From: a bacterium | GTDB lineage: Bacteria; Electryoneota; RPQS01; DYHQ01 | Direction: 5' to 3' | DNA: 64,000 bases | Assembly (NCBI GenBank): GCA_030622545.1 | Contig: JAUXGA010000005.1 | Location: forward strand, 62,001 to 126,000 | In this document: positions 4,113 to 41,831 of the stretch, in pieces | Layout of the letters: the number at the start of each line of letters is the position of its first letter | Position numbering within the stretch: the stretch's first letter is position 1 | Position numbers and translations under genes: made by a program | The notes under the pieces: model-generated | Seen by the model: only the letters and a program-made list of their open reading frames with translations | The model's database searches: none | Told to the model about the DNA's origin: nothing

Positions 4113-6644
4113 ATGACTGAACCTCCGGGAAAGCAGACGAATTTATTGCCGGAAAATGGCAACGGCAACGGTAATGAAACCGGCGAGCGCGTCGTTCCGA
4201 TTAATGTCGAAGATGAGATGAAGAATTCTTATCTCGACTATTCCATGTCGGTGATTGTGTCGCGGGCGCTGCCGGATGTGCGCGATGGCTTGAAGCCTGT
4301 GCACCGGCGTATTCTCTACGGTATGCATGAGCTGGGTCTCGGCGCCGGGCGGGCGTTCAAGAAGAGCGCGCGCATCGTCGGGGATGTCATGGGAAAATAC
4401 CATCCGCACGGCGATATGGCGATTTACGATACGCTCGTGCGACTCGTACAGAGCTTTTCCATGCGCTACCCGCTTATCGAAGGGCAGGGCAATTTCGGTT
4501 CCATCGACGGTGATAGAGCCGCCGCGATGCGATACACCGAAGCGCGCTTGAAGCGTTTGGCTGAGGAAATTCTCAATGATTTCGACAAGGACACGGTTGA
4601 CTTCGTTCTGAATTACGATGAGACATTGAAAGTTCCGGCTGTTCTTCCGTCAAAATTGCCGAATTTACTGGTCAATGGTTCGGATGGGATTGCGGTCGGG
4701 ATGGCGACACGGATTCCGCCGCATAACCTGCGCGAGGTCGTGGACGGTCTTTGTGCGATGATTGATAAGCCTGAGATTACCACTGAACAGCTCATGGAAT
4801 ATGTCACCGCTCCGGATTTTCCGACCGGCGGGATTATCTTTGGCCGCGAAGGAATTCGTGAAGCTTACACGACTGGTCGGGGACGGCTTATCGTACGCGC
4901 CAAGGCGAACATCGAAGAAGCCACCAAGCCCGGAGCCCGCGACCGCATCGTGGTCACGGAAATTCCTTATCAGGTCAATAAATCGCGGCTTATCGAAAAG
5001 ATTGTCTTCTTGCTCGGACAGAAAAAAGTCGAAGGCATCGCTGATATTCGGGATGAATCTGATCGCGACGGTATGCGGCTTGTGATTGAATTGAAGAGAG
5101 AAGCTATTCCGGATATTGTGCTGTCGCAGCTCTTCAAGCACAGTCCACTGCAGGAGACGTTCGGAGTGATTCTGCTGGCATTAGTCGGAGGGATTCCGAA
5201 AATTCTGACCCTTCGCGACATCTTCGAACATTTTCTGGAGCATCGGCACGAAGTCGTACTTCGGCGCACGCAGTTCGAACTGAAGCAAGCCAAAGACCGG
5301 ATGCATATCTTAGAGGGATTGCAAACGGCTTTGGATCATATCGACGAAGTGATTGAAGTCATTCGCGCCGCGACATCACCTGACGTGGCTCAGCGAGAAT
5401 TGATGGCGACGTTTGGACTTTCGGAACGTCAGGCCAAGGCGATTCTTGAGATGCGGCTTCAGAGGTTGACCGGTCTTGAACGGAAAAAACTCCATGATGA
5501 GATGGTCGAGCTGCGGGCGAAAATCGAGGAGTTTGAGCAGTTAATGGCATCCCGTGAAGCGCGGATGGTGCTCGTTAAAGATGAGCTGGTGGAGTTGGCG
5601 GAGAAATACGGCGATGATCGCCGGACGCTCGTTGTCGATGAGACGGCGGATGTGAATGTCGAGGATCTAATCGCACCTGAAGATATGGTGGTGACGATTT
5701 CCCGCGCGGACTATATCAAACGCTTCCCTGTATCGGGTTTCCGGCGGCAGGGGCGCGGCGGGCGAGGTTCGCAGGGCGCTCGACCGAAAGAAGAAGATGC
5801 GATTCAACATCTTTTTGTCGCGTCAACCCATGACTATATTCTTTTCTTCACAGACCGGGGCAAGTGTTATTGGCTGAAAGTCCATGAAATCCCTCAATTA
5901 GGACGCGGCTCCCGCGGGAAAGCGCTGGTCAATTTTATTGAACCCCTTATCGAGGAACGCGTGCGCGCGCTGGTAACCGTCTCTGATTTCGAAGAGGGAC
6001 GTTATGTTATGATGGTGACGCGCAAGGGAACGGTAAAGAAAACCAGCCTTGCGGATTTCAAGCATCCGCGCAAGTCAGGGATTATCGCCATCAAAATCGA
6101 TTCGGATGATGAGCTTCTGGATGCGGTGATGACTGAGGGAGACAGCGAAATCGTGATTGGAACGTCTCAGGGGAAAGCGGTTCGTTTTCATGAATCGGAA
6201 GCTCGCCCGATGGGACGCGCAGCGCAGGGCGTTCGGGGAGTTCGTCTGCCGGAAGGAGCTCAAGCGGTCGGTATGGTGGTTGCGAGTGAAGGCAGTACGA
6301 TTCTAATAGCAACAGAGCGCGGCTACGGCAAACGTTCGCTAAGTTCGGCGTATCGGTTGACAAAGCGCGGCGCTCAAGGCGTACTTGCGTTGAAAACGAC
6401 GTCTAAAACCGGACCAATGGTTTCTATGATGAATGTTACCGATGAAGACGATCTTATCATTATCACGGGAGCGGGAGTTGTCATTCGGCAGTCTGTGAAA
6501 GATATTCGGAAGATGGGACGCGTGACGCAGGGTGTTCGTCTGATTCGACTGGATCCGGGAGACAAAATCGCCGATATCGCCCGTGTGTTGCCGGAGAATG
6601 GGGACGTTAACGGCCCCAATAACAAGCAAGAGTCCCACGAATAA
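4113..6644 (+). CDS. gyrA: DNA gyrase subunit A
   Basis: GyrA, 843 residues, makes the transient double-strand break in DNA during supercoiling, in an A2B2 complex with GyrB in the cytoplasm. The winged-helix breakage domain is complete: catalytic Tyr141 in [23 protein letters not shown]-type loop, and HPHGD at residues 97-101. The GyrA box is present near residue 545 (RQGRGGRG), and the C-terminal beta-pinwheel blades follow, which favours GyrA over ParC. A Gly/Asn-rich N-terminal extension (residues 15-22) is low complexity. The residue equivalent to E. coli Ser83 is Met102, while the Asp87 equivalent is kept. gyrB is not adjacent. Short gap (17 bp) to the methyltransferase downstream. Confidence 0.97.
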
Positions 6645-6661
6645 CAATGGATTAATTCAGG

Positions 6662-7414
6662 ATGAACTCTATGGAAGAAACGAAGCCACTGTCAGATTTT
6701 GTTGCGCAATGTCCGCGGATCTTTCAGAACTATGGCAAAGTCCTTGAAGATCGGAACAACTACTTCAATAAACGTTTTGCCTTGGAGTGGGCGGATGACC
6801 TGACGGATAAATGGGTCGTGGAAGCGGGTTGTGGTGACGACAGCATGCTCAACCGATGCCAACCTCCTCTTCAGCACGTTCTTGGTCTAGACCCTCTCCT
6901 TGAGTCTTTGCATCTTGGCCCTCATATGGGCTGGAAAGTGCAGGGAGTTGTGGAAGAAATCCCGTTTCGCGCGGAGACGTTCGACGCCATCTACTGTGAT
7001 TCGGTTTTCGAACATATTCAGGACCCGAAGGCAACCTGCCGTGAGTTCTATCGCGTGTTGAAACCAGGCGGAAAGGTGCTGATTAATACAAACAGTATTT
7101 TTAATCCCTTTATGTTTCCCAACAAGTTTCTTTCGATGAAGTTTCGGAAGTGGGTTAAAAAGAACATTCTGCACATGAACGAATGGGAGATTAAGGGAAC
7201 CTATCCTGCACCGTATCGAGCGAATACAAAGGCGCGTCTCAAGCGTTATTTATTACGAGCCGGGTTCCGCAATATTCAGTTTTATCGCTGGGGATTGCCG
7301 GGAATGAGGCGACCGAAATGGGTGTTTGCTCTGTTGCTTTGCATGGAACTGCTTTCGGAAATCCCGCTTTTCTGTGGTCTCAAACATCGTTTAATGGTCA
7401 CTTGCGAAAAATAG
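6662..7414 (+). CDS. SAM-dependent methyltransferase (Methyltransf_11 type)
   Basis: 250 residues, class I Rossmann methyltransferase. Motif I reads VVEAGCGDDSM (residues about 43-53), the acidic ribose-binding residue is in GLDPLLES, and the post-I region DAIYCDSVFEHIQDP and RVLKPGGKVLINTN match the ubiE/Methyltransf_11 family closely. The last 90 residues are basic with a hydrophobic patch (ALLLCMELLSEIPLF), often seen in enzymes acting on lipids or glycan-lipids. It sits between gyrA and a sugar-transferase-type membrane protein, so a polysaccharide or lipid-linked substrate is possible, but this is inference from context only. Confidence 0.85.
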   Translation: MNSMEETKPLSDFVAQCPRIFQNYGKVLEDRNNYFNKRFALEWADDLTDKWVVEAGCGDDSMLNRCQPPLQHVLGLDPLLESLHLGPHMGWKVQGVVEEIPFRAETFDAIYCDSVFEHIQDPKATCREFYRVLKPGGKVLINTNSIFNPFMFPNKFLSMKFRKWVKKNILHMNEWEIKGTYPAPYRANTKARLKRYLLRAGFRNIQFYRWGLPGMRRPKWVFALLLCMELLSEIPLFCGLKHRLMVTCEK

Positions 7415-7478
7415 TAAAAGTTGTTGCTACCAGGCCAACCGAGGTCTGAAAATTTGTTAAAAGAGAAGTCTTCTCGAT

Positions 7479-8333
7479 ATGAGTAGTTCCCAATCTAAGA
7501 CATCCCCACAAGTGCGCCCTCAGAGTCGATCAGGGTGGTTCTGGATGCCGCTTTTAGCGGTGCTCCTCGACATATCGGCGGTCTTTCTGGCGGCGGTTAT
7601 CACGTACACTTTGCGTTATTCCGAGCCGTTTGTCTCGGTGCGAGCTCCCCGAGCGTTTCCCGAGCTGGGCGAGTATATGCTCTTCGGATTTGTCTTGGGG
7701 CTGGTGTATGTGCTGATTGCTCGCTCGTATCGATATGATTTGTGTCGAGCGCGAGTACCGCTTGAGCGGGAGGTTGGCCGAATTCTGACCGGAGCCGTAC
7801 TTTCGATGGGTCTGGTGCTGGCGGCGATTTTTTTCTATCGGGAATTTAACTATTCCCGTGCGATTTTCCTCGGGACGCTTATCCTGATGATCCTTCTACT
7901 CGTTTTGGTGCGGGCGGTTTTCTTTCGTATTCAGAAAGCTCTTTTTCGCCGGGGATTGGGATTGCAGCGTGTGGCTCTCTGGGGTTGGGGAACCGCAGCT
8001 CAAGCGCTCTATGATGAGTTTACCCGCGCGCGTGCGCAGGGTTTTGACCTTATCGGAATCGTCGGGCAACCACTGAATCCGAACCAGCAGAGTCTGGGGT
8101 CGCTCGAAGAGCTTTCCGAAATTGCTGCGAAACACAAGATTGATTTTCTGGTGATTTCTTTGCCGCCGGGAGAAGAAGAGCGGATGGTGGAAGGAATGAA
8201 AGCGGCCGAGGGAGTACCGGTGGAGTTGCTTTACGCGCCCGGCATACTTGAAGTGATGCCTTCACGCATGCAATTCGGCGACGTGGGAGGCAAACCACTT
8301 CTCCGGCTCAAAGGAGCGCCGCGCGGCAATTAA
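7479..8333 (+). CDS. Polyprenyl glycosylphosphotransferase N-terminal half (no catalytic domain)
   Basis: 284 residues. An N-terminal block of about four membrane helices (PLLAVLLDISAVFLAAVITY, then MLFGFVLGLVYVLIA, LSMGLVLAAIFFY and LILMILLLVLVRAVFF) is followed by a Rossmann-like CoA-binding-type domain (VALWGWGTAAQALYDEF). This is the N-terminal half of WbaP/ExoY-like initiating sugar transferases. The protein stops after KPLLRLKGAPRGN, exactly where the phosphosugar-transferase domain normally begins (usually some 180-200 more residues). No catalytic segment is visible downstream in any frame before rex. It may be a stand-alone regulator or a truncated gene. Confidence 0.75.
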   Translation: MSSSQSKTSPQVRPQSRSGWFWMPLLAVLLDISAVFLAAVITYTLRYSEPFVSVRAPRAFPELGEYMLFGFVLGLVYVLIARSYRYDLCRARVPLEREVGRILTGAVLSMGLVLAAIFFYREFNYSRAIFLGTLILMILLLVLVRAVFFRIQKALFRRGLGLQRVALWGWGTAAQALYDEFTRARAQGFDLIGIVGQPLNPNQQSLGSLEELSEIAAKHKIDFLVISLPPGEEERMVEGMKAAEGVPVELLYAPGILEVMPSRMQFGDVGGKPLLRLKGAPRGN

Positions 8334-23461: not shown

Positions 23462-25588
23462 TTAAATTAAAAGCAATCCAAGCAGAGCGAGGAGTCCCAT
23501 CCAAAGCGCGGATGTGTCTAAGCCCAGCGAGGGAAGCAGGAGCAAGCTTGCCATGAGAGCTCCAAAGCTGCCGCCGAGAAGGTCTGCCGCATAGAGCGCC
23601 CCGCCCTTGTCCGGTGTTTTTTCGGTGGCATAACAAAAGAAGGAACCCACTACCGCGCCCGCAAAGAAAAGCCAGACTATTCCGACAATCGTGTAGCGCA
23701 TTCCTTCCCAGTGAAAGATGAGCATGGACGCGCCGCAAAGCAAAACGAGCGACAACGCAAGCACATACCCGCGTGTTCTTGTTCTTGCTGCCCATTTTCC
23801 CGGCAGCGGACTGACAGCTAATCCCGCCATGAAACCCGCTAAGAGTAATCCGATGTCTTGAAACAGAACACCGCTCGCTGTTTGGAAACGCAGCAAGACA
23901 GCGAATTCGATAACCATGCCTGCAAAACCGGCGAGGATAACTAAAAGAAGTTTTGCTGCGGCGACAGCGCGCCGTCTTACTATCCAGAAAAGTGCGAGCA
24001 GTGGAAGCAGAAGCCACCAGAGCCAACTCCCCGCGCTGGTTTGAAAATCGGACAGTTCATAGTAGAATTTTGACAACCACAGCAGCAGTGTCAGTTGATA
24101 ACAGACCGGCTTCAAATCCGAATTGACTGGAGCGATAGTCTGGTTCAGGATTTGTTCTATTTCGGTGAAGCGGTCGTTCGTGTAGAGGTAGTTAATGTAG
24201 GGCGGAAGGATGAGGCGTGTTTTGATTTGTCGCGCAAGTAAACGCTCGACGCTGACAATCGGCTCTCGGCTGAGCGATGTATTTGATGCGAGAAACGTGT
24301 TGACGCCGCCGGGGAGGACGATGATGTCGCTGAAGATGGATTTCGCTGCGCGGTAGATACTCGTGTTGCGGCGCGCGAGGCCCGGTGTCCAGTATTGCTC
24401 GGAAGACGGTAGTCGAAACGCTATTAGACCGTCTTCTATGAGGACGCGAGCGCACGCTGCAAAGAACTCACGCGTATAATAGCGGTTTGTTCCTCCCGAC
24501 GTGGGTTCGGGCATATCCACGATGATAACATCGTAGCGATTCGTTGTGCTGCGCAGGAATTTGCGTCCGTCGGAAATAATCAGGTTTACGGGAGGGGCTT
24601 GTAGCGAATTTCTGATTTCGTTGGGGAGATGCGCTTGCGCCAGTTCGATGAGAAACGGATCCAGTTCGATATAGTCAATTTTCTCTGGGCGATGCTTCAG
24701 GATTTCGCGCACGGTTCCGGAAACGCCTCCGCCGAGCAGTAGAATGCGGCGCGGGTTTTCGTGCGCCAAGAGTGCGAGGTGTGCGATTTCTTCGGGTTCT
24801 GTGCCTTGTGTTTCGAAAGAGAGTGCGCCGTTTTCAAACACGGCGAGTTGGCCGCCGCGTTCTGTCATTGTCAGGCGGCCATAGGGGGAATCGCGACTGT
24901 CCAACAGTCCGGGGAATTGCCAGCGGAGAGTGGCTCGGTCAACTGCATTGCCTGCAAAAAAGAGAAAGCTTAAAGATGCTAATGTTGTCAGAGCAAAAAG
25001 AAAACGCGCAGAACGTGCATCGTGCGTGAGAAGAGAGCCGATGAAAAACGTGAGCGCGCTGCACAGAATAATCGTGGGAAATGTCGCCAGATGACCGGCT
25101 AAGAGAAAAGTGGACGCCAGCCCGCCAATGACTCCTCCCAGCGATTCCAGTCCATAAGCGGTAGCGAAACTGCCACCGCGAGTCACATGCCTGCGGGCGG
25201 CCTGCACGAAGAGATATCCGAGCAGAAGTCCCGCCGGTGCGAGCGTCGCGGCCATCGCGATGAGTTGCTGTTCGAACGGCATAAAAGCGCCGGGAGTCGC
25301 TCCGAAAATCAGACGGACGCCCCGCGCGAAGACAACTTCAAGCGGCAGTGCGAATCCCAGAGCGGCGACGCACGCCAGCAGTCCTTTGTTCGTTCCGATT
25401 CTGCGACTGAGAAGCGCGCCTAAACCTGTCCAAACGAGCCAGAAAGCGATGGCCAGCAAATAAATTAATTCACTGCCGAAAAAAGCAACGGCCAGTTCAC
25501 GCAGCAGCGCGACCTGACCGAGAATCGAGATGAATCCAATAAAGAGAAGAATCAAGCCGGACAATGGTTTATTTTTCACCGGCTGCAT
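23462..25588 (-). CDS. Membrane spermidine-synthase-like protein
   Basis: 708 residues. An N-terminal set of membrane helices (LILLFIGFISILGQVALLR and others to about residue 225) is followed by a spermidine-synthase/methyltransferase-like Rossmann domain (about 230-430: ILLLGGGVSGTVREIL, YIELDPFLIELAQAHLP, NLIISDGRKFLR, DVIIVDMPEPTSGG) and another set of helices to the end. Such fused-MFS/spermidine synthase proteins are widespread; whether they make polyamines is unproven. It begins 3 bp after the MEMO-AMMECR1 gene in the AmmeMemoRadiSam operon, which suggests a shared pathway. Confidence 0.85.
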   Translation of the reverse strand: MQPVKNKPLSGLILLFIGFISILGQVALLRELAVAFFGSELIYLLAIAFWLVWTGLGALLSRRIGTNKGLLACVAALGFALPLEVVFARGVRLIFGATPGAFMPFEQQLIAMAATLAPAGLLLGYLFVQAARRHVTRGGSFATAYGLESLGGVIGGLASTFLLAGHLATFPTIILCSALTFFIGSLLTHDARSARFLFALTTLASLSFLFFAGNAVDRATLRWQFPGLLDSRDSPYGRLTMTERGGQLAVFENGALSFETQGTEPEEIAHLALLAHENPRRILLLGGGVSGTVREILKHRPEKIDYIELDPFLIELAQAHLPNEIRNSLQAPPVNLIISDGRKFLRSTTNRYDVIIVDMPEPTSGGTNRYYTREFFAACARVLIEDGLIAFRLPSSEQYWTPGLARRNTSIYRAAKSIFSDIIVLPGGVNTFLASNTSLSREPIVSVERLLARQIKTRLILPPYINYLYTNDRFTEIEQILNQTIAPVNSDLKPVCYQLTLLLWLSKFYYELSDFQTSAGSWLWWLLLPLLALFWIVRRRAVAAAKLLLVILAGFAGMVIEFAVLLRFQTASGVLFQDIGLLLAGFMAGLAVSPLPGKWAARTRTRGYVLALSLVLLCGASMLIFHWEGMRYTIVGIVWLFFAGAVVGSFFCYATEKTPDKGGALYAADLLGGSFGALMASLLLLPSLGLDTSALWMGLLALLGLLLI

Positions 25589-25591
25589 ATG

Positions 25592-27139
25592 TCAGTGCTT
25601 TTCTTCGCTGAAAACTTCCGCCTGAAAAACAAAAAGCTCGGCGTCATCCTTCCAGCAATCGCTGCCGAGACCGGCTTTGGCGCAAAGATGTTCGAGCAGG
25701 TCGTTCAAATTCCATCCTTGCTCCGGAGCGACCTGCGGGAGGAACACTGCGCTGTGACCTCGCTTGCGAAGCAAAACTCCGTCGCGACCGATGACAATTT
25801 CGTCAACACTGCTTATTTTCTTATAAGGAGTCAGAGCGGAGATTTCGATGGACAGATTTTTCCATTCATCGAGAGTGACGGGACTAAAGCGTCGGTCATT
25901 GAACGCCGCCTGCAAAGCCATCGCGCCGACAACCTGACAAAGCGGGCGGTCTTCGGCCATGTGACCGATGCAGCCTCGCAAACGCCCGCGGTCTTTGAGC
26001 GTCACGAAAGCTCCGCGCTTTTGATAGAGCTTCGGAGTGTCGGGACGCGCTAAAGGTGCCATGCCGGTTCGCAGATAGTGATCGATGGATTTGCGGGCTA
26101 AGGTGAGCAATTGCTGCTGCTCGTCTTCGGACAAGGGAGTTTCCGTCTCTTCGAGTTCTGCTATTTCCAACGCTGAGACATCGCTTTCCTTGGAGCCTCG
26201 CGCCAGCACGACCGCTCCATAGCCGACCACGCGATCCATATCTCCTAAAGGTGTATCGCCGGAATTTGCGTAGCTGATAACGGTTGCGCGCGTGGCGTTC
26301 AGTTTTTTAGCCGCGAACAACGCTGTTAATATGGGGCCTTCTCCGCAGGCGCAGGTCGATAAGCCGGGAACGCCGCGTTTCATTTCTTCCGCAATAACAT
26401 TTTTAACTTTCCGGGGTTCCATCGTCGCAATCGCTTTTAAGGTTCGCCGGTCTGTGACAGCGGCATCATCATAATCGGGATAGTGCGAAAGATCAGAGCT
26501 GGCGACAATCAACACAGATTTATCGCGGATGAGCTCCGCAATCGCATTGCCTAAATCCCGGCAAAGTTCGAAATCGGATGAGCCTACGATAATGGGAACA
26601 ATCTGCGCGCCCGGCAAAACCGTTTGAATGAACGGGATTTCCACTTCGATTGAGTGCTCCTGTGCATGCACTTCCGCACGATACGTGAAACGTTCGTCGG
26701 CCGATGCGATTTCTTGAGCCAATTCTTCGTCAATAGGAACGTCGCCGAGCGGGGTGCGATACGCGCCGCGCTGCCAGATGGATGCTCCCCGAAAGGCGGA
26801 TGCGGTGTGATTCGTTCCCAGGATGATGACGGTGGAGAACGATTTGCCTTCGACTTGTTTGAAAGCGTCGGCGGCGATTTGCCCGGAAAAAACGTAGCCT
26901 GCATGCGGAACGATAATGGCGACAGGCTCTTCTTCGGGAGTTCCCGCGGCATCTTCGAGAAAGAAGTTGACGGCTTGCCGGAGCTGCTCGGCGTCATCGG
27001 AGTAGAATTGTCCCGCTACGGCTGGTGGCCGGACGTCGGCTCCGGGCGAACCGGCTGAGTTTGCCGTCTTGCGTCGTGCAATCATGATAATCACCAATAA
27101 TGCAAAGAGAATAAGGATGAGGATATGAACGAACTTCAT
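25592..27139 (-). CDS. Membrane-anchored MEMO1-AMMECR1 fusion (AmrB-AmrA)
   Basis: 515 residues. Residues about 4-21 form one hydrophobic helix (HILILILFALLVIIMIA), then a MEMO domain (about 36-325) with its metal/active-site-type residues in IIVPHAGYVFSG, ILGTNHTA, SSDLSHYPDYDDA and CACGEGPI, and an AMMECR1 domain (about 345-510) with GRLRGCIGH and NDRRFSPVTLDEW. MEMO resembles extradiol dioxygenases and human MEMO1 binds metal; AMMECR1 has no known activity. In prokaryotes the two occur with an AmrS radical SAM enzyme, here the gene 64 bp upstream. The N-terminal anchor implies a membrane-bound, probably extracytoplasmic, protein, which is unusual for the family. Confidence 0.9.
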   Translation of the reverse strand: MKFVHILILILFALLVIIMIARRKTANSAGSPGADVRPPAVAGQFYSDDAEQLRQAVNFFLEDAAGTPEEEPVAIIVPHAGYVFSGQIAADAFKQVEGKSFSTVIILGTNHTASAFRGASIWQRGAYRTPLGDVPIDEELAQEIASADERFTYRAEVHAQEHSIEVEIPFIQTVLPGAQIVPIIVGSSDFELCRDLGNAIAELIRDKSVLIVASSDLSHYPDYDDAAVTDRRTLKAIATMEPRKVKNVIAEEMKRGVPGLSTCACGEGPILTALFAAKKLNATRATVISYANSGDTPLGDMDRVVGYGAVVLARGSKESDVSALEIAELEETETPLSEDEQQQLLTLARKSIDHYLRTGMAPLARPDTPKLYQKRGAFVTLKDRGRLRGCIGHMAEDRPLCQVVGAMALQAAFNDRRFSPVTLDEWKNLSIEISALTPYKKISSVDEIVIGRDGVLLRKRGHSAVFLPQVAPEQGWNLNDLLEHLCAKAGLGSDCWKDDAELFVFQAEVFSEEKH

Positions 27140-27203
27140 GATGTTTTAAAGCCTGTGTTCACCCACTGCTTGCGGGGGGACGAAGGGGGCGACCTTAAGA
27201 AAT

Positions 27204-28442
27204 TTAATGCCAGACGCCGTAGATAGGCGTAGAACAGAATTCGCATGTCCCATCTTTCAGGTGAATCGCGGTGACATGGAATCCCATGCGTTCGATAATT
27301 TTCTCGCCGCAGCCGGGGCAGTAGGTATGGTTGCCCGGATGACCGGGGACATTGCCGACGAAGGGATAGTGCAAACCACTTGTTAGCGCGATTTCGCGGG
27401 CGCGTTCCAGCGTCGAAACGGGAGTCGGTGGAAGATTCAGCAGCCGATAGTCGGGATGAAAACGCGTGAAATGAATCGGAATATCAGGACCGACTTCACC
27501 CGCCACCCACTCACAAAGCCCGCGTAAATCCTCTTCGGAATCGTTCAGCGTCGGGACAACGAGGTTGACGATTTCGAGATGCGTGCCGCTTTTCGCCACC
27601 GCTTTAATGTTTCTCAGAACCGGTTTCAGCTCCGCGCCGCAGACGTCACGGTAAAACTTTTCGCTAAAGCCTTTGAGGTCGATTTTAATCGCGTCGAGTG
27701 TCTGGCAGAGTTCCTGGAGCGGTTCGGGATTCATGAAGCCGCAACTGATGAGCACATGCCGCAGGTTCTGAGTCGAGCCGTGCTTGGCAATATCCATCAT
27801 GTATTCGAAGAAGACAGTGGGTTCATTATACGTAAACGCGATAATCGGCGCTTGGCGGGTTCGCGCGGAACGAACGATTTGCTCCGGCGTAGAACTCGGC
27901 AGATCAAAATCTTCGGGACTCGCCTGTGAGATTTCCCAATTCTGGCAGAACTTGCAGCTTAGCGGGCATCCGGCTGTCGCGAGAGAATAGGCGTTTGCGC
28001 CCGGCAAGAAATGGTAAAGGGGCTTCTTCTCGATGGGATCAACATGAATGGCGACCGGGCGACCGTAAACAAGAGAGCGCAATTGGCCGTCCACATTTTC
28101 ACGCGCACGGCACATGCCGCGTTTGCCGACTGGGATGGCGCATTCCTGAGCACAAAGCAGGCACTGCACAAGCCCTTCGGGGTGTTTGAAATCCGGATCT
28201 AATGCTGTTTCATCATGGCAAAGGTCGCATCGCCCGGCGGCTGTCGCAAGCGATACCCAGAAGCGGGCTTCGGGAGCGGTTTGCGCGAGAGCACTTGCCG
28301 CAAACGCCTCTTGAGGGCTGACTTCAAAAAGGAATTTAAGCCACGACGGAGAGGATGCCGTTAGAGTGAGGCTGCCTCCGAGAAGCCCTAATCGCCCGGC
28401 AAACGTAAGAAAATCACGCCTTGTCAGCATGCGGGTTGGCAT
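27204..28442 (-). CDS. amrS: AmmeMemoRadiSam-system radical SAM enzyme with Tat-like signal
   Basis: 412 residues. The radical SAM cluster motif is CPLSCKFC (residues about 159-166), followed by QNWEISQ; the domain runs to about 350 and a C-terminal zinc-type motif is present (CPGCGEKI...CEFCSTPIYG). Two extra cysteine pairs (CDLC, CLLCAQEC) lie before it. The N-terminus TRRDFLTFAGRLGLLGGSL is a twin-arginine signal followed by a hydrophobic stretch. It heads a three-gene minus-strand operon with the MEMO-AMMECR1 fusion. Closest characterised relatives are pyruvate-formate-lyase activases; the reaction is unknown. A Tat-exported radical SAM enzyme would be surprising, since reductant and SAM are cytoplasmic. 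No Shine-Dalgarno site was seen. Confidence 0.9.
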   Translation of the reverse strand: MPTRMLTRRDFLTFAGRLGLLGGSLTLTASSPSWLKFLFEVSPQEAFAASALAQTAPEARFWVSLATAAGRCDLCHDETALDPDFKHPEGLVQCLLCAQECAIPVGKRGMCRARENVDGQLRSLVYGRPVAIHVDPIEKKPLYHFLPGANAYSLATAGCPLSCKFCQNWEISQASPEDFDLPSSTPEQIVRSARTRQAPIIAFTYNEPTVFFEYMMDIAKHGSTQNLRHVLISCGFMNPEPLQELCQTLDAIKIDLKGFSEKFYRDVCGAELKPVLRNIKAVAKSGTHLEIVNLVVPTLNDSEEDLRGLCEWVAGEVGPDIPIHFTRFHPDYRLLNLPPTPVSTLERAREIALTSGLHYPFVGNVPGHPGNHTYCPGCGEKIIERMGFHVTAIHLKDGTCEFCSTPIYGVWH

Positions 28443-28673: not shown

Positions 28674-28787
28674 GTCTCACCCGCACGCGGGGAAAATCTA
28701 AGGGTCGGCTGCAAGCAGCCAACACCGCAGAATCGCAGCGGAGAAAGCGATGACTATAAATTCTTACCTTTGGAGAGATATCTAAAA

Positions 28788-31334
28788 ATGGCAGAAGCAC
28801 CTGAAAAGAAAATGACACCTGCGGAGATTGAGCGGGAATGGTACGATAACGTTTATCGCGGTGATGACATGCGCCAGCTTACGTTGCGTGCGGTTATCAT
28901 GGGCTCTTTTTTGGGTTCGTTTATGTCCCTATCGAATCTCTATATCGGTTTGAAGACTGGCTGGGGATTGGGAGTGGCGATTACATCCTGTATTTTATCA
29001 TTTGCCATCTGGAAAACACTGCGCAAAATCGCGCCACGCCTTTTCAAGACAGACATGTCCATTTTAGAAAACAACGCGATGCAGTCCACAGCATCATCGG
29101 CGGGTTATTCCACCGGCGGCACGATGGTCTCGGCGATTGCCGCGTATATGCTGCTCTATGGACACCATATCAGCTACGGCATCCTCACCTTCTGGATATT
29201 CTTCCTGGCGGTGCTCGGAGTGACGATGGCGATACCGATGAAGCGGCAGATGATTAATGTCGAGAAGTTGAAATTCCCGTCGGGAATCGCCGCCGCCGAA
29301 ACTTTAAAGAGCCTTCACGGAGACGGTAAAGAAGGAAAAGCGGAAGGGATGGGAGCGGCGCGGACTCTCTTTGCGTCCGGAGCAATCGGCATCGTTACCG
29401 CGACGATTCGTGATGGTTTCGGGTGGCTGCCGATGCTCTACGGTTGGTTTGGCGCTCGGCTGGCCAGCTATACGATTTCGTTTGAAGCCAGTTTTATCTT
29501 AGTCGCCGCCGGAGCGATTATGGGTCTGCGCGTTGCCACAAGCCTTCTTATCGGTGGAGTTTTAAACTGGGGTTTACTCGCGCCTCCGCTGATTAAAAAT
29601 GGCGTCATCACCCACCCCGCGCCAACTATTCGCACCACAGAAAAACCAAGTTTTCCTCTGCACATTCCAGCCGGGCACTCTTTGGAGCTGACATTTATCG
29701 AGGCGTCTAACGGGTCGTTCTTCTCGTCGGGTTCAGACACGGTTCGTTTGGCTTATACGTGGTGGGAAGCGGCGACCTATCAGGATATGGAATCTCTGGT
29801 AGCTTCTCTCAATGATTCGCTGCTGAGTGACGGGCGAAGCAGTAATCCTCTCTACGGCCATATCGATTTTGGCGAGCCGGAAGCAGCTTACGAGGAAGGT
29901 TATCTCGAAGCGCGCGCTTCGGGTGCGATTAGCCGGGAATCGAAGCTTTCAGCGCCCGAAGGTGAGTTTGCAAAGGTCGCTATTTTCGGAACCATAGCAA
30001 AATCGCTAGGTTTTGACGAAACGAAAGGCACACGCCTGGCGGGAGCGCCGCAGTTTCCGGTAACGATAGACGCCGGAACACGCGTTGTACTTGTTTTACA
30101 GGAAGGGCAGAAGTACACGCCGTTTTCCCATGTCTGGCCGATGAAAGTCAGCTATGGGTCGATGACAGCTCTGATTCGAGATTTGAATTTATCCCGAAAT
30201 TCGCAGGATGGGCAGGCTTCTTTGGCCGATGTTTTTCAGATTACCGCAGGCAAGGATTCGCTCTTTATCACCGCTCCTGCTGTTTCGCATCTGCTGGGTT
30301 TTGAATCCGGTATCATGGATCATCAGGAGCCGGGCGGCTACCGCAATATCGTCGCTTGGAGTCTCTGGGCGGGAGCGGCTTGCATGGTCACGTCGGGACT
30401 CTTAGCGTTTGCCTTCGAATGGAAAACGGCTTTGCGCGCTTTTTCGGGCGTGACTCGGATTTTCAGACGGAGACGCCGTAATGGCGAGCAGGAAGAAGAT
30501 CCGCTGGAGCGCGTTGAAGTGCCGGGATCATGGTTTGCCGGAGGGATGACCGTGGGGACGATTGGAGTCGTGGCGATTGTCTCTATCTATTTTGCTGTTC
30601 CGGTATGGATGGCGCTTTTGGCAGTTTTCCTGTCGTTTTTCCTTGCGCTCGTGGCCTGCCGGGCGACCGGAGAAACCGATACCACTCCGGTTGGAGCGAT
30701 GGGCAAAATTACGCAACTCATTTATGGGGCTATCGCGCCGCGTCAGATGAATACGAATCTCATGACGGCTTGCATCACAGCGGGTGTCGCAGATTCTGCG
30801 GCTGATCTTTTGATTGATTTGAAAAGCGGCTACTGTTTGGGCGCGAATGCCCGGCGGCAGTTCTTGGCGCAATTCGCCGGGATTTTCGTTGGCACAGCCG
30901 TCGTCGTACCCGCGTTCTATCTGATTGTGCCGGATGTCAGCGTTTTGGGTTCGGATAAATTCCCGGCTCCGGCAGCACAGGTGTGGGCGTCTGTGGCGAG
31001 GCTTCTTTCCGGCGGATTCGAGTCGCTTCATCCGACGGCGCGTCTTGCGCTGGCTATCGGAGGAGTTGTTGGCTTGATGATTCCGATGCTCGAGAGACTC
31101 TTTCCGAAAGCGCGGCCTTTTATTCCATCGGCGATGGGACTTGGGCTTGCTTTTTGCATTCCCTTTTGGAACTGCCTGTCTATGTTTATCGGCGGGTTGA
31201 TTGCTTATATTCTGATGAAAATCCGACCCGCTTTGGCGGAGAAATATACCATCCCAGCGGCATCCGGACTCATCGCCGGAGAAAGCCTGACGGGTATTTT
31301 TATCACGCTGGCGTTTGCGTTAGGTTGGATATAG
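28788..31334 (+). CDS. OPT family oligopeptide/metal-chelate transporter with large insertion
   Basis: 848 residues from ATG 28788 (GGAGAG at 28771-28776 is 11 nt upstream). Integral membrane OPT protein: the first block (VIMGSFLGSFMSLSNLYIG, FPSGIAAAETLKSLHGDGK, a signature of bacterial OPTs) and the last block (TTPVGAMGKITQLIYG, NTNLMTACITAGVADSAADLL, PAASGLIAGESLTGI) fit the family, which imports peptides or metal chelates. Between about residues 275 and 510 lies a hydrophilic insertion of some 230 residues (HIPAGHSLELTFIEASNG... VRLAYTWWEAATYQDMESL) with two similar beta-rich halves. Bacterial OPTs are usually 600-680 residues, so the insertion explains the excess. It stands alone behind its own promoter. 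Confidence 0.9.
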   Translation: MAEAPEKKMTPAEIEREWYDNVYRGDDMRQLTLRAVIMGSFLGSFMSLSNLYIGLKTGWGLGVAITSCILSFAIWKTLRKIAPRLFKTDMSILENNAMQSTASSAGYSTGGTMVSAIAAYMLLYGHHISYGILTFWIFFLAVLGVTMAIPMKRQMINVEKLKFPSGIAAAETLKSLHGDGKEGKAEGMGAARTLFASGAIGIVTATIRDGFGWLPMLYGWFGARLASYTISFEASFILVAAGAIMGLRVATSLLIGGVLNWGLLAPPLIKNGVITHPAPTIRTTEKPSFPLHIPAGHSLELTFIEASNGSFFSSGSDTVRLAYTWWEAATYQDMESLVASLNDSLLSDGRSSNPLYGHIDFGEPEAAYEEGYLEARASGAISRESKLSAPEGEFAKVAIFGTIAKSLGFDETKGTRLAGAPQFPVTIDAGTRVVLVLQEGQKYTPFSHVWPMKVSYGSMTALIRDLNLSRNSQDGQASLADVFQITAGKDSLFITAPAVSHLLGFESGIMDHQEPGGYRNIVAWSLWAGAACMVTSGLLAFAFEWKTALRAFSGVTRIFRRRRRNGEQEEDPLERVEVPGSWFAGGMTVGTIGVVAIVSIYFAVPVWMALLAVFLSFFLALVACRATGETDTTPVGAMGKITQLIYGAIAPRQMNTNLMTACITAGVADSAADLLIDLKSGYCLGANARRQFLAQFAGIFVGTAVVVPAFYLIVPDVSVLGSDKFPAPAAQVWASVARLLSGGFESLHPTARLALAIGGVVGLMIPMLERLFPKARPFIPSAMGLGLAFCIPFWNCLSMFIGGLIAYILMKIRPALAEKYTIPAASGLIAGESLTGIFITLAFALGWI

Positions 31335-31518: not shown

Positions 31519-32457
31519 TTGAAGAAGCGTTTCACAAAATTCACACTTGTTTTCGGTGGCGGTGGCGTGCGAGCGCTGGCTCATATCGGAGTTTTAGAGG
31601 TACTCGAAAAGGCCGCCGTTCCCATAGGCCGCATTGTCGCAACGAGCGCAGGAGCAATTATCGGAGCGATGTACGCCTGTAATCCTGACGCTTCTGACGT
31701 ACGTCGCAAAGCGGGCGCGTTTCTGGATGGCGAAACGTTCAAAGATATCGAAAATCTTTTTCAGGACAGGCTACGGGGAACCGGAGGCGATATTCATTCC
31801 TTACCACGACTTCTGCTGCGCGTAAAGCGATTCCTTTTAGCGACCAAAGCCGCCGCCAGTCCGGGAATTTTTGAAACCGAAGTTCTCCATACGATTGTGG
31901 ATTCCCTGTTGCCGGACGTGCAGATGTCTGAGTGTCAAATTCCTTTTGCTGCGGTCGCTGTTGATTTGAAATCGGGGCGACCGACGGTTCTCGATTTGGG
32001 AAGTTTGCACGACGCTGTTGTCGCCAGTTGCGCCATTCCGGGTTTCTTTCCACCACAGCTTTTTAATGGAAATCTCTACATAGACGGGGGATCGGTTAGC
32101 CCTGTGCCGGTATTAGAAGCGCGCAGCCTGAGCGATTCCGGGTATCCGATTATTGCCGTTGATGTCGGTCGTGATCTCGAAAGCGATGTCGAAGTTTCCA
32201 ACGCCCTTGATGTCGTCTTGCGCAATGAATCCATCGCAGGTTTTTGGCTGAAGAAACCTCACCTTGAAAAAGCGGCGGTCATTATTGATCCGGATGTAGG
32301 TCAGTACACGTGGTCTCACGCCAAGGAGAAAGACGCCTTAATCGAAACGGGAGCGAAAGCGGCGCGTGAAGCTCTGCCAGTGATTTCGAGATACCGAGAG
32401 GAAAGCTCGGCGGGTATCTTGAGTAGGATTTTCAAGAAGATAAGAAATCCTTCATAA
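31519..32457 (+). CDS. Patatin-like phospholipase inside inverted repeats
   Basis: 312 residues from TTG 31519, with GAAGGA just upstream. The oxyanion-hole motif is FGGGGVRALAHIG, the nucleophile elbow is VATSAGAIIG (Ser at about residue 44), and the catalytic Asp is in IDGGSVSPVPV. In most patatins the elbow is GxSxG; here the first Gly is Ala, a small change also tolerated in some bacterial members. Family: serine-aspartate dyad lipid acyl hydrolases (RssA/NTE-like). No signal peptide, so likely cytoplasmic or membrane-peripheral. The gene lies precisely between two 71-bp inverted repeats, 21 bp from the left copy and 27 bp from the right. Confidence 0.9.
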   Translation: MKKRFTKFTLVFGGGGVRALAHIGVLEVLEKAAVPIGRIVATSAGAIIGAMYACNPDASDVRRKAGAFLDGETFKDIENLFQDRLRGTGGDIHSLPRLLLRVKRFLLATKAAASPGIFETEVLHTIVDSLLPDVQMSECQIPFAAVAVDLKSGRPTVLDLGSLHDAVVASCAIPGFFPPQLFNGNLYIDGGSVSPVPVLEARSLSDSGYPIIAVDVGRDLESDVEVSNALDVVLRNESIAGFWLKKPHLEKAAVIIDPDVGQYTWSHAKEKDALIETGAKAAREALPVISRYREESSAGILSRIFKKIRNPS

Positions 32458-36350: not shown

Positions 36351-36386
36351 GCGTGTCCTTGATGGTTCTTTTTGTGGAGGGAAATA

Positions 36387-37433
36387 ATGGGTAAGATTCG
36401 ACGAGTTGCCGTTCTTTCGGGGGGAGGTTCTCGCGGTTGTTTTCAGGTTGGGTTTCTCCACGGTCTCTTCCATCAGCGACCGGAAGCCCATGATTTCCAT
36501 TTTCATGGCTGGGTGGGAGTCTCGACAGGCGCGTTACAGGCGTCGTGGATGGGACATTGGCTGCCGGGAACTCCCGATAACTTCTCGCTCCAGCAGAAAA
36601 TAAGCGCTCAAAGTCTGAAAGCGATCTGGCTCAGCCTTGAAGGAAACTCCAGCATCTTCGAGTCTTGGCGCAACAACTTCTGGAGTTGGACGCTCCGAAA
36701 GATTGTCCCGAAACTTTCGCCGGACATGAAGGATTTGGCGATGGCGGTTCTTCGGAGAAAATCGGCGGTTTATGACAATTCTCCGCTTCTCGAGCTGCTG
36801 AAAGAACATCTGCAGAACGCCCGCTGGCATCCCGGTACGACCTTTGTCGGCGTGACGGATTATCGCACTGGGGACTATCAAGATATCGAACTAAAGGCGG
36901 GGGAAGCGATTACGAATATCCTTGCCAGTACAGCGATTCCCATTGTCTTTCCGGGAGTCAATGGTTTATTCGACGGCGGCGTGCGGAACATGACTCCGCT
37001 CAAAAAAGGTGTTAAGCTCCTCTTATCGGAAGGACAGGCCCCGGATGAGGACTATGAGCTGTACGTAATTCTTACCGGCCCGCGAGGAGTTGTCGCCACG
37101 GAAGAAAAATATGAGCATATCGTTGATATCGCCAAACGGACGTACGGCATTATCATGGATGAGATGTTAGTCGAAGATTTAAAGGAAGCCGCCAGAGTAA
37201 ACCGGCTGGTTGACTTTTTAGATTCGATGCAGAAGATGAATCCTCATCTGGATGTCCCTGAAGAATATGCGAAGTATGTTAAATTGAAAATCTACCTGAT
37301 TGAACCGCAGTTGGATATGGTGCCGAAAGAGTCGACGAAATTTCATCCTGATGAAATGCGTCATGGTATCGAATGCGGAGAGCGAATAGCGAAGGATTTC
37401 ATTCAGGAGCCCGGCAGATTTCTTTTCACGTAA
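36387..37433 (+). CDS. Patatin-like phospholipase, second copy
   Basis: 348 residues from ATG 36387, with GGAGGG (36375-36380) 6 nt upstream. LSGGGSRGCFQVGFLHGL is the oxyanion loop, GVSTGAL the nucleophile elbow (a complete GxSxG) and GLFDGGVRNMTPL the Asp motif. The C-terminal half is longer than in the 31519 patatin and has no membrane helix. Cytoplasmic lipid acyl hydrolase by family. It lies 36 bp after the HDAC-like gene and 19 bp before the radical SAM gene, so the three probably form one transcript. Confidence 0.92.
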   Translation: MGKIRRVAVLSGGGSRGCFQVGFLHGLFHQRPEAHDFHFHGWVGVSTGALQASWMGHWLPGTPDNFSLQQKISAQSLKAIWLSLEGNSSIFESWRNNFWSWTLRKIVPKLSPDMKDLAMAVLRRKSAVYDNSPLLELLKEHLQNARWHPGTTFVGVTDYRTGDYQDIELKAGEAITNILASTAIPIVFPGVNGLFDGGVRNMTPLKKGVKLLLSEGQAPDEDYELYVILTGPRGVVATEEKYEHIVDIAKRTYGIIMDEMLVEDLKEAARVNRLVDFLDSMQKMNPHLDVPEEYAKYVKLKIYLIEPQLDMVPKESTKFHPDEMRHGIECGERIAKDFIQEPGRFLFT

Positions 37434-37452: not shown

Positions 37453-38442
37453 ATGAAACGGATAAAAGCGGCGTATGCGGTAAAAGAGGGTGACCGGATC
37501 TTGTGCGAACTCTGTCCGCGATTTTGCAGGCTCGCCGAAGGACAGGAAGGTTTTTGCCGGGGACGGGAAGTTTCAGGCGGCGAACTCTATGTGACGAACT
37601 ATGGGCAGGCCGTTTCAATGGGTGTGGATCCGATCGAAAAAAAACCGCTGTTTCATTTTCATCCAGGGAAGCCGATACTTTCGCTGGGACCGAATAGCTG
37701 CAATCTCTCCTGCAAGTTCTGCCAGAATGCGGACATCTCGCAGGGGCGTGTCTCGACACACTACGTATCGCCGGATGATTTGACGAGATTGGTTGAGAAC
37801 TACGATTCTATCGGCGTCGCTTTCACCTACAGCGAGCCTCTGATGTGGTATGAATACATCCGCGACAGCGCTCCTTTGGTACGCGAGAAAGGCGGAGTTG
37901 TCGTGTTGGTGACAAACGGTTATCTTTGTGAAGAGCCTTTACGAGAACTTCTACCGCACATTGACGCACTGAATGTGGATTTGAAATCTTCGCAGGAAGA
38001 TTTCTACCACCGTCTTTGCGGAGGACATCTGGAAGATGTTTTGCGGACGATACGTATCGGCGTCGAATTGGGACTCCATATCGAGGTGACGCATCTCGTT
38101 GTCACAGGTGAAAACGACAACGAAGAGAATATTCGCGCCATCCGGGATATTATCGCGGCTATCAGCCCTCGGATTCCGCTGCACCTGTCTCGCTATTTTC
38201 CTCACTATAAATATAACGAGCCCGCCACGTCGGGAGAATTCCTTTTAAAGGCGCGGCGGATTTGTCAGGAGAAGCTTCCCTTTGTTTATCTGGGGAATAT
38301 CGCGCCCAACGGTGGAGAAGATACGCGCTGCCCGGTTTGTGACGAACTTATTATTTCGCGGCGTGGCTATGCTACAGAGATTCATGCACTTTTAGATGGT
38401 CATTGCGTGAAATGTGGGGCGGATTTGGGAGTGGTTCAATAG
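37453..38442 (+). CDS. AmrS-like radical SAM protein, second copy
   Basis: 329 residues, no signal sequence. CNLSCKFC (about residue 80) then QNADISQ is the AmrS/PFL-activase-type cluster motif. CELCPRFC and a glycine-rich loop precede it, and the C-terminal CPVCDELI...CVKCGADLG zinc-type motif matches the paralogue at 27204. The shared block DPIEKKPLFHFHPG (DPIEKKPLYHFLPG in the other copy) shows they are close relatives. Here the partner MEMO and AMMECR1 genes are absent and neighbours are HDAC, patatin and an alanine symporter. Reaction unknown; likely generates a glycyl-type radical or a peptide modification by family analogy. Confidence 0.9.
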   Translation: MKRIKAAYAVKEGDRILCELCPRFCRLAEGQEGFCRGREVSGGELYVTNYGQAVSMGVDPIEKKPLFHFHPGKPILSLGPNSCNLSCKFCQNADISQGRVSTHYVSPDDLTRLVENYDSIGVAFTYSEPLMWYEYIRDSAPLVREKGGVVVLVTNGYLCEEPLRELLPHIDALNVDLKSSQEDFYHRLCGGHLEDVLRTIRIGVELGLHIEVTHLVVTGENDNEENIRAIRDIIAAISPRIPLHLSRYFPHYKYNEPATSGEFLLKARRICQEKLPFVYLGNIAPNGGEDTRCPVCDELIISRRGYATEIHALLDGHCVKCGADLGVVQ

Positions 38443-40873: not shown

Positions 40874-41200
40874 ATGAGAGATAAGCGTCACATATTCCCC
40901 AAAGCCAGAATTCCCTATGGCACCTGGGGAAGCAGCTTTTTCCCGGCCTGGCAGATGTCTCCACTGGCGGAGGTTAATATCGGCCAGTTTGCCAGCGAGG
41001 CTATGAACAAGATTTTAGGAATCAGAAAGGTTCCCAAGAGTGAGCTGGACTACCTTATTCTTGGCTCCACAGTCCCTTGGCATTGGAAATTTTGGAACGC
41101 ACCACTCATAGCAAGCTGCCTTGGGCGCCGCGTGCCGGGTTATCATGTGGAACAGGCTTGTGCCACAGGCCTCCAGACGATTCTTTTGGGAGCAACTTGA
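40874..41200 (+). pseudogene. Thiolase 5' fragment
   Basis: 108 residues with a normal start (AGGGAG before the ATG) matching the N-terminus of acetyl-CoA acetyltransferase-type thiolases: KARIPYGTWGSSF, ASEAMNKILG, LDYLILGSTVP and the catalytic-Cys segment VEQACATGLQ. Thiolases are about 390-430 residues; this one stops just past the nucleophile, and sequence of an unrelated enzyme begins in another frame at the same point (about 41188). So the gene was cut and joined to a foreign 3' piece. It cannot be an active thiolase. Confidence 0.75.
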
Positions 41201-41831
41201 GATACGAGAGAATCGAATCTTTCGCAAAGAGAACGGCCACAAAGAACTCCCTTGGAATGAAGTGGCGGCACAGTGTTTCGCGCAGAATGGGCCCCTTACA
41301 GGTCGCGGGCATTATTCTCCGCCGGAGGGATTGGGAGGGAAGTTCAAAGGAGCAACCGTCGGAACATCTCCTGCGTATTCGTTTTCCGTTTGCGTCTGCG
41401 AGGTGGACGTGGATATTGAAACCGGACGCGTGAAGGTGACCGCTTTCACGGATGCGCACGATGTCGGAACGCCGGTCAATCCCGCGGCTGTCGAAGGGCA
41501 GGCGGAGGGAGCGATTGCGATGATGCTCGGTGAAACACTATTCGAGGACGTAGTCTTCGACGACAACGGAAAAAACCTCAATCCCAATCTTCATGATTAT
41601 CTTTTGGTAACTGCCAAAGACGTCCCACCGATTAACTGCAGCACGGTCGAGTCGTATGAACCGCGAGGCCCTTTCGGAGCGAAGGAAGTGGGTGAAGGCT
41701 CAACACTACCGGTCATCGGCGCCATCGCCAACGCCATTGAAGACGCGATAGGCGTCCGCATCAAATCCCTCCCCATCACCGCGGAAAAGGTCTTGAGAGC
41801 GCTGAAAGAAAAGAAGAACACGGAAGGCTGA
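41188..41831 (+). pseudogene. Xanthine dehydrogenase/aldehyde oxidase molybdopterin subunit, 3' fragment
   Basis: The C-terminal 210 or so residues of a molybdopterin-binding large subunit (xanthine dehydrogenase, 4-hydroxybenzoyl-CoA reductase alpha type, normally about 750 residues): LTGRGHYSPPE, GTSPAYSFSVCVCEVDVDIE, AHDVGTPVNPAAVEGQAEGA, RGPFGAKEVGEG (with the catalytic Glu region) and ITAEKVLRAL. Its own start is lost; the frame before about 41188 reads through the out-of-frame thiolase piece. The normal stop is kept. Gene remains after a deletion or rearrangement, or an assembly join. Confidence 0.78.

Follow-up and report, generated by a model that had tools for sequence, protein, structure and literature searches.

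Export signals and conserved neighbors point to an envelope-located version of the AmmeMemoRadiSam system

RESULTS

Gene content of the locus

Three adjacent genes of the window (the whole 64,000-nucleotide stretch of DNA that was analyzed) encode the radical SAM enzyme AmrS, a fusion of MEMO and AMMECR1, and a membrane protein that resembles spermidine synthase (SpdSyn-like protein). All three lie on the minus strand where the initial annotation had placed them, with the fusion gene 64 bp downstream of amrS and separated from the SpdSyn-like gene by 3 bp (25589-25591). The features considered below are as follows.

27204-28442, minus strand: AmrS, radical SAM enzyme with N-terminal Tat signal (AF2 model, pLDDT 90.8)
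28407-28424, minus strand: twin-arginine motif TRRDFL (aa 7-12), read in the sequence and conserved in the clade, then a helix (aa 8-29) predicted in the model
28215-28229, minus strand: heme-c-like CxxCH (CDLCH, aa 72-76) with conserved His87 downstream
27945-27968, minus strand: radical SAM motif CxxxCxxC (C159, C163, C166), invariant in alignments A1 and A3
25592-27139, minus strand: MEMO-AMMECR1 fusion with N-terminal membrane anchor (TIGR04336, TIGR04335, PF01875, PF01871)
27080-27130, minus strand: anchor helix of the fusion (aa 4-20)
26207-27031, minus strand: MEMO domain; H79, H111, D216, and H219 invariant, C265 nearly invariant
25610-26113, minus strand: AMMECR1 domain
23462-25588, minus strand: SpdSyn-like membrane protein (PF01564; AF2 model, pLDDT 91.4; fold match to SpeE, 1uir)
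24716-24733, minus strand: GGGVSG, in which the Asp of GGGDGG that binds decarboxylated SAM (dcSAM) is lost

AmrS scored 372.7 bits against TIGR04337 (cut-off, 220), and the fusion, which clusters with it as expected of an AmmeMemoRadiSam partner, exceeded the cut-offs of both TIGR04336 (274.7 bits) and TIGR04335 (179.8 bits) and retains the His/His/Asp/His/Cys metal site of MEMO. This anchored fusion is the sole MEMO in the window's genome. The window holds a second AmrS that the initial annotation had not mentioned (37453-38442, plus strand; 298 bits against TIGR04337), which is 38% identical to the first, lacks any signal, and has no MEMO or AMMECR1 nearby; it is flanked by a patatin-like gene on one side and an alanine:sodium-symporter-like gene on the other.

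Other genes of the surroundings were recorded as well. An OPT-family transporter (28770-31334, plus strand) is divergent from amrS, and two patatin-like phospholipase genes (31519-32457 and 36372-37433, plus strand; the second recognized by eye only) lie within 5 kb. At 41121-41831 (plus strand), starting about 760 bp past a tRNA-Lys gene, the sequence looks, judged by eye, like a fragment from the C-terminal end of a xanthine dehydrogenase/CoxL-type subunit, with no intact N-terminal part alongside.

Export signals of AmrS and of the fusion

The initial annotation had read a twin-arginine signal at the AmrS N terminus and a membrane anchor on the fusion, and had held that the idea of an envelope-located set would fall if the RR motif was absent in close homologs or stemmed from a misassigned start and, in addition, the spermidine-synthase-like neighbor was not conserved. 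Starts are indeed uncertain in metagenome assemblies, and the whole pattern could in principle be an artifact of start calling or of chance RR motifs. However, a stop lies only five codons upstream of the ATG, and the only other ATG, at codon 5, likewise lies before TRRDFL; MPTRMLTRRDFLTF is therefore essentially forced as the N terminus, and a wrong start codon could be ruled out. Moreover, RRxF[LI] followed by a hydrophobic stretch is kept in relatives down to about 50% identity, which argues against a chance motif; the motif occurs in close and distant homologs alike, its conservation extends across many phyla, and its presence follows that of TatC (see below). An artifact is thus scarcely credible, and the twin-arginine signal stands. 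Since the genome (G000) also encodes TatC, the sequence criteria for a Tat substrate are met, although the evidence for Tat-dependent export is only indirect. In one relative (L173, genome G016), the AmrS N terminus, RRRTFLKKVGGTLLLAGC, resembles a Tat lipoprotein signal.

Radical SAM enzymes need S-adenosylmethionine (SAM) and a strong reductant, both normally available only inside cells. This difficulty would disappear if exported AmrS was a metal or redox protein that uses the scaffold without radical SAM chemistry. We consider this improbable, since CxxxCxxC and its neighboring motifs, which meet the cluster criterion for a radical SAM enzyme, do not vary between cytosolic and exported members, and since the AmrS model retains the fold of pyruvate formate-lyase (PFL) activase (3cb8/3c8f), its best PDB match.

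The membrane anchor of the fusion was likewise recovered, with ambiguous flanking charges in the window's protein (K2 before the helix; R22, R23, and K24 after it) and with lipoprotein or Sec signals in its place in relatives. Fusions adjoining an exported AmrS open mostly with lipoprotein signals (e.g., LTQGC, LSSGC, or FSTSC), otherwise with Sec signals, whereas next to a signal-less AmrS the domain begins directly. Both proteins carried a signal at 43 loci, the fusion alone at one, and neither at four, with no locus where only AmrS did (P = 2.6e-5); every AmrS with a signal was therefore matched by a fusion with one (43/43). Within the exported clade described below, neither protein has kept its signal at the Bacteroidales loci L089 and L090, and probably also at L098. 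The P values for co-variation ignore shared ancestry, and a test on independent pairs could draw on no more than one or two of them; because the exported loci largely form one clade, these values overstate independence.

Distribution of the exported type and the choice of export route

A protein search of 147 genomes, together with a scan of named genomes, recovered AmrS loci in, among others, Latescibacterota, Planctomycetota, Omnitrophota, Acidobacteriota, Chloroflexi, Desulfobacterales, Bacteroidales, KSB1, and one Altiarchaeota bin. Using regular expressions and hydropathy rather than a trained predictor, we sorted 110 AmrS into 56 with a Tat signal, 9 with a KR variant, 18 with a Sec signal or anchor, and 27 with none. 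This heuristic labels as Tat a few short RR n-regions (L044, L046, and L129) that resemble Sec signals with an RR n-region; by eye, we set L081 as Tat and L117 as a signal-bearing fusion and left L038, L073, and L098 unassigned. A tree built from 129 AmrS gathers the exported type into essentially one large clade of 92 rows spanning many phyla, with 80 signals in cis, 5 split anchors, 3 unassigned, and 4 without a signal. The more basal AmrS, including the window's second copy, lack export signals. Only three changes between export and nonexport are needed on this tree, and Tat and Sec/anchor signals swap repeatedly within the exported clade.

Should the RR motif function as a Tat signal, genomes without Tat would be expected to lack it. 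TatC was found in 29 of the 31 genomes with a Tat-type AmrS and in none of the six with a Sec/anchor type (P = 1.2e-5). Both exceptions among the former are incomplete genomes (G037, 86% complete; G021, 77% complete), and the latter (G041, G131, G104, G109, G106, and G055) belong to six different families. The test is partly out-of-sample: in 20 further genomes that were added, the sole Sec/anchor type (G055) again lacked TatC, and the Tat types had it except in G021. One genome, G106, had been moved by eye from Tat to Sec/anchor; kept as Tat, it gives P = 1.3e-4. That the route tracks TatC suggests that location is conserved while the route changes.

The SpdSyn-like membrane protein

PF01564 is the only Pfam family found on the third protein, and its model shows seven helices, a domain of spermidine synthase fold, and about seven further helices, in line with the polytopic, spermidine-synthase-like membrane protein of the initial annotation. 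For all 24 members in which seven helices precede the domain, Lys/Arg counts place the N terminus inside; by the positive-inside rule, the AdoMet-type domain is thus predicted to lie outside. All three parts, and not merely the two for which outward signals had been noted, are therefore predicted to point outward.

The Asp of GGGDGG binds the amino group of decarboxylated SAM. It was absent from all 19 relatives with a readable motif, as it is from the window's protein, so that the criterion for SpeE is not met, and scores fell far short of every cut-off of the curated spermidine synthase models (for instance, PRK03612, 147 versus 472 bits; PRK00811, 126 versus 260). In a plant spermidine synthase, the exchange D103I abolished that activity and brought a weak SAM-dependent methyltransferase activity (PMC3725402). 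Elsewhere, the window's genome encodes SpeD as well as a separate SpeE that has both GGGDGG and DTTDP. Judged by its sequence, the SpdSyn-like protein is no spermidine synthase; without binding data, we infer SAM or a product, rather than dcSAM, as its ligand. The initial annotation had hinted at a cofactor, polyamine, or protein modification at the envelope. The lost Asp and the ordinary SpeD/SpeE pair speak against polyamine synthesis and weaken that part of the idea.

The initial annotation had also made the envelope idea depend on whether this neighbor is conserved. Counting only AmrS with 3.5 kb available on both sides, a SpdSyn-like gene lies within 3.5 kb of 22 of the 40 exported AmrS but of none of the 27 cytosolic ones (P = 5e-7). 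The order of the genes varies, from AmrS-fusion-Spd in the window's clade to fusion-Spd-AmrS in Desulfobacterales and AmrS-DsbD-Spd in Omnitrophota and Elusimicrobia, with the opposite strand used elsewhere. This variation favors a functional link over the mere inheritance of one arrangement.

A CxxCH motif and electron carriers at related loci

Between the Tat signal and the first radical SAM Cys pair, each of the 16 complete AmrS sequences in the window's subclade carries a CxxCH motif, often CxxCHG and always with a second His downstream. The motif is new here, the initial annotation having missed it; it is confined to exported members, and no other AmrS of our set outside this subclade has CxxCH...H. 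The window's genome encodes ResB and a CcsA-like protein, so that the criterion for a c-type protein (CxxCH in a protein of the exported type plus maturation genes) is met, although such assembly genes occur in most genomes, with or without CxxCH in AmrS, and hence lend only weak support to heme. We lean slightly toward a heme c site for electron entry, with heme attachment inferred from the motif and its context. That the motif is instead a zinc or structural knuckle remains quite possible, if short of probable: it is a single motif in a family that already has other cysteine pairs, no cytochrome family matched, and Tat exports folded proteins whereas heme c attaches to the unfolded polypeptide. 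Such a knuckle does not readily account for the exact conservation of CxxCH, the frequent CxxCHG, the constant second His, the restriction to exported members, or the presence of cytochrome c maturation genes.

At related loci, other candidate electron carriers adjoin AmrS. Genes of the DsbD_2 family border AmrS at 12 loci, most of which have the Sec/anchor type, and in three cases (L047, 6099-7841; L054, 5585-7249; L055, 1744-3432) the DsbD_2 part is fused to FMN_bind and Fer4_5 domains in a membrane protein encoded directly upstream of AmrS. At L053, the FMN_bind and Fer4_5 protein directly upstream (6476-7798) ends in an AmrS-like N-terminal linker. FMN_bind proteins serve extracytosolic electron transfer (PMC8238504). 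Separately, a DUF362 gene lies directly upstream of several Tat-type AmrS (L071, 6973-7974; L060, 3924-4922; and similar cases), and the L071 copy also opens with an RR motif.

Loci that do not fit

At four loci, a small anchored peptide ends in the N-terminal motif of AmrS, and the catalytic AmrS has no signal (L027, 1483-2466; L065, 2375-3415; L066, 5379-6401; L138, 2770-3813). The two genes overlap or follow each other directly, and the oddity at L053 is related. A programmed frameshift was rejected as an explanation, since the required shift differs among the four loci, which also showed no slippery site in common. At a further locus, L087, a signal-less AmrS is paired with a signal-bearing fusion.

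These loci lend some weight to the possibility that AmrS chemistry takes place in the cytoplasm, which supplies SAM and reductant and in which, to our knowledge, all characterized radical SAM enzymes work; the N terminus would then only tether the enzyme, or export it after its work, and a substrate or product would cross to MEMO-AMMECR1 outside. Yet a mere tether needs no Tat signal, nor a switch to Sec exactly where TatC is missing, and a cytosolic enzyme would have little use for CxxCH or for electron carriers on the outside. We therefore regard this possibility as unlikely, without being able to dismiss it.

DISCUSSION

An envelope-located set is well supported by the sequences: the RR motif is kept in close and distant homologs, its start is not misassigned, and the neighbor is conserved beside exported AmrS and absent beside cytosolic AmrS. 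AmrS and the fusion are very probably exported, a conclusion drawn from signals and topology alone, with export itself inferred. That the three proteins form a single extracytoplasmic, SAM-using system is somewhat probable. In such a system, AmrS would receive its iron-sulfur cluster in the cytoplasm and then be exported folded via Tat or, in lineages without Tat, by means of a Sec signal or anchor. Outside, it would meet the membrane-tethered fusion and the extracytoplasmic AdoMet-type domain of the SpdSyn-like protein, and the three might together modify an envelope molecule, be it a lipid, an isoprenoid, or a protein. Electrons may reach the radical SAM cluster from a covalent heme c at the N-terminal CxxCH...H in the window's subclade, and from neighboring flavin/ferredoxin or DsbD-type membrane carriers in other lineages.

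We favor, with reasonable though limited confidence, an extracytoplasmic version of AmmeMemoRadiSam as the explanation of the whole. Homology, the signals and their co-variation, the tracking of TatC by the route, the conservation of the neighbor, and the intact catalytic motifs are observed; export, heme attachment, the electron path, the substrate, and the supply of SAM outside are inferred. Against an exported system counts that our analysis found no SAM source outside the cytoplasm, and we know of none. A search of the literature collection at hand for exported radical SAM enzymes or exported AmrS returned no such report. Whether this is the first radical SAM pathway outside the cytoplasm, with its own transmembrane electron supply and a membrane protein whose AdoMet-binding domain faces the same side, is in our judgment evenly balanced.

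If this large AmrS clade works outside, the envelopes of many uncultivated bacteria must contain SAM and low-potential electrons, and a class of envelope modification still awaits discovery. MEMO and AMMECR1 are conserved in humans and linked to disease, and their biochemical role is unsettled. The exported set offers a handle on it: it would confine the search for the substrate to the membrane and the space beyond it, and its genes are few enough to reconstitute.

Comparison with known systems

The intracellular AmmeMemoRadiSam system (TIGR04335, TIGR04336, and TIGR04337) shares with the window's locus the three families, their clustering, and the catalytic motifs; here, in contrast, AmrS adds a Tat signal and the CxxCH extension, the fusion is membrane anchored, and a SpdSyn-like membrane protein is added. 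The nearest solved fold to AmrS, that of the PFL activating enzyme (3c8f, 3cb8), has CxxxCxxC in common with it, but AmrS falls below the cut-off of TIGR02493, has extra Cys-rich N- and C-terminal parts, and is of the exported type. Similarly, the polyamine aminopropyltransferase SpeE shares its soluble-domain fold (1uir) with the SpdSyn-like protein, which however lacks the GGGDGG Asp and the DSTDP-type motif and has its domain between membrane helices, predicted outside. Flavinylated extracytosolic electron-transfer proteins (FMN_bind/Fer4_5, NapH-/DsbD-like) contain the domains that adjoin AmrS at L047, L053, L054, and L055, but radical SAM enzymes are not named there as a client (PMC8238504), and the module is missing from the window's locus. 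Finally, human MEMO1 has the same domain and the same metal ligands (His49, His81, Asp189, His192, and Cys244; PMC9477392) as the MEMO of the window, which differs in being fused to AMMECR1 and of the exported type.
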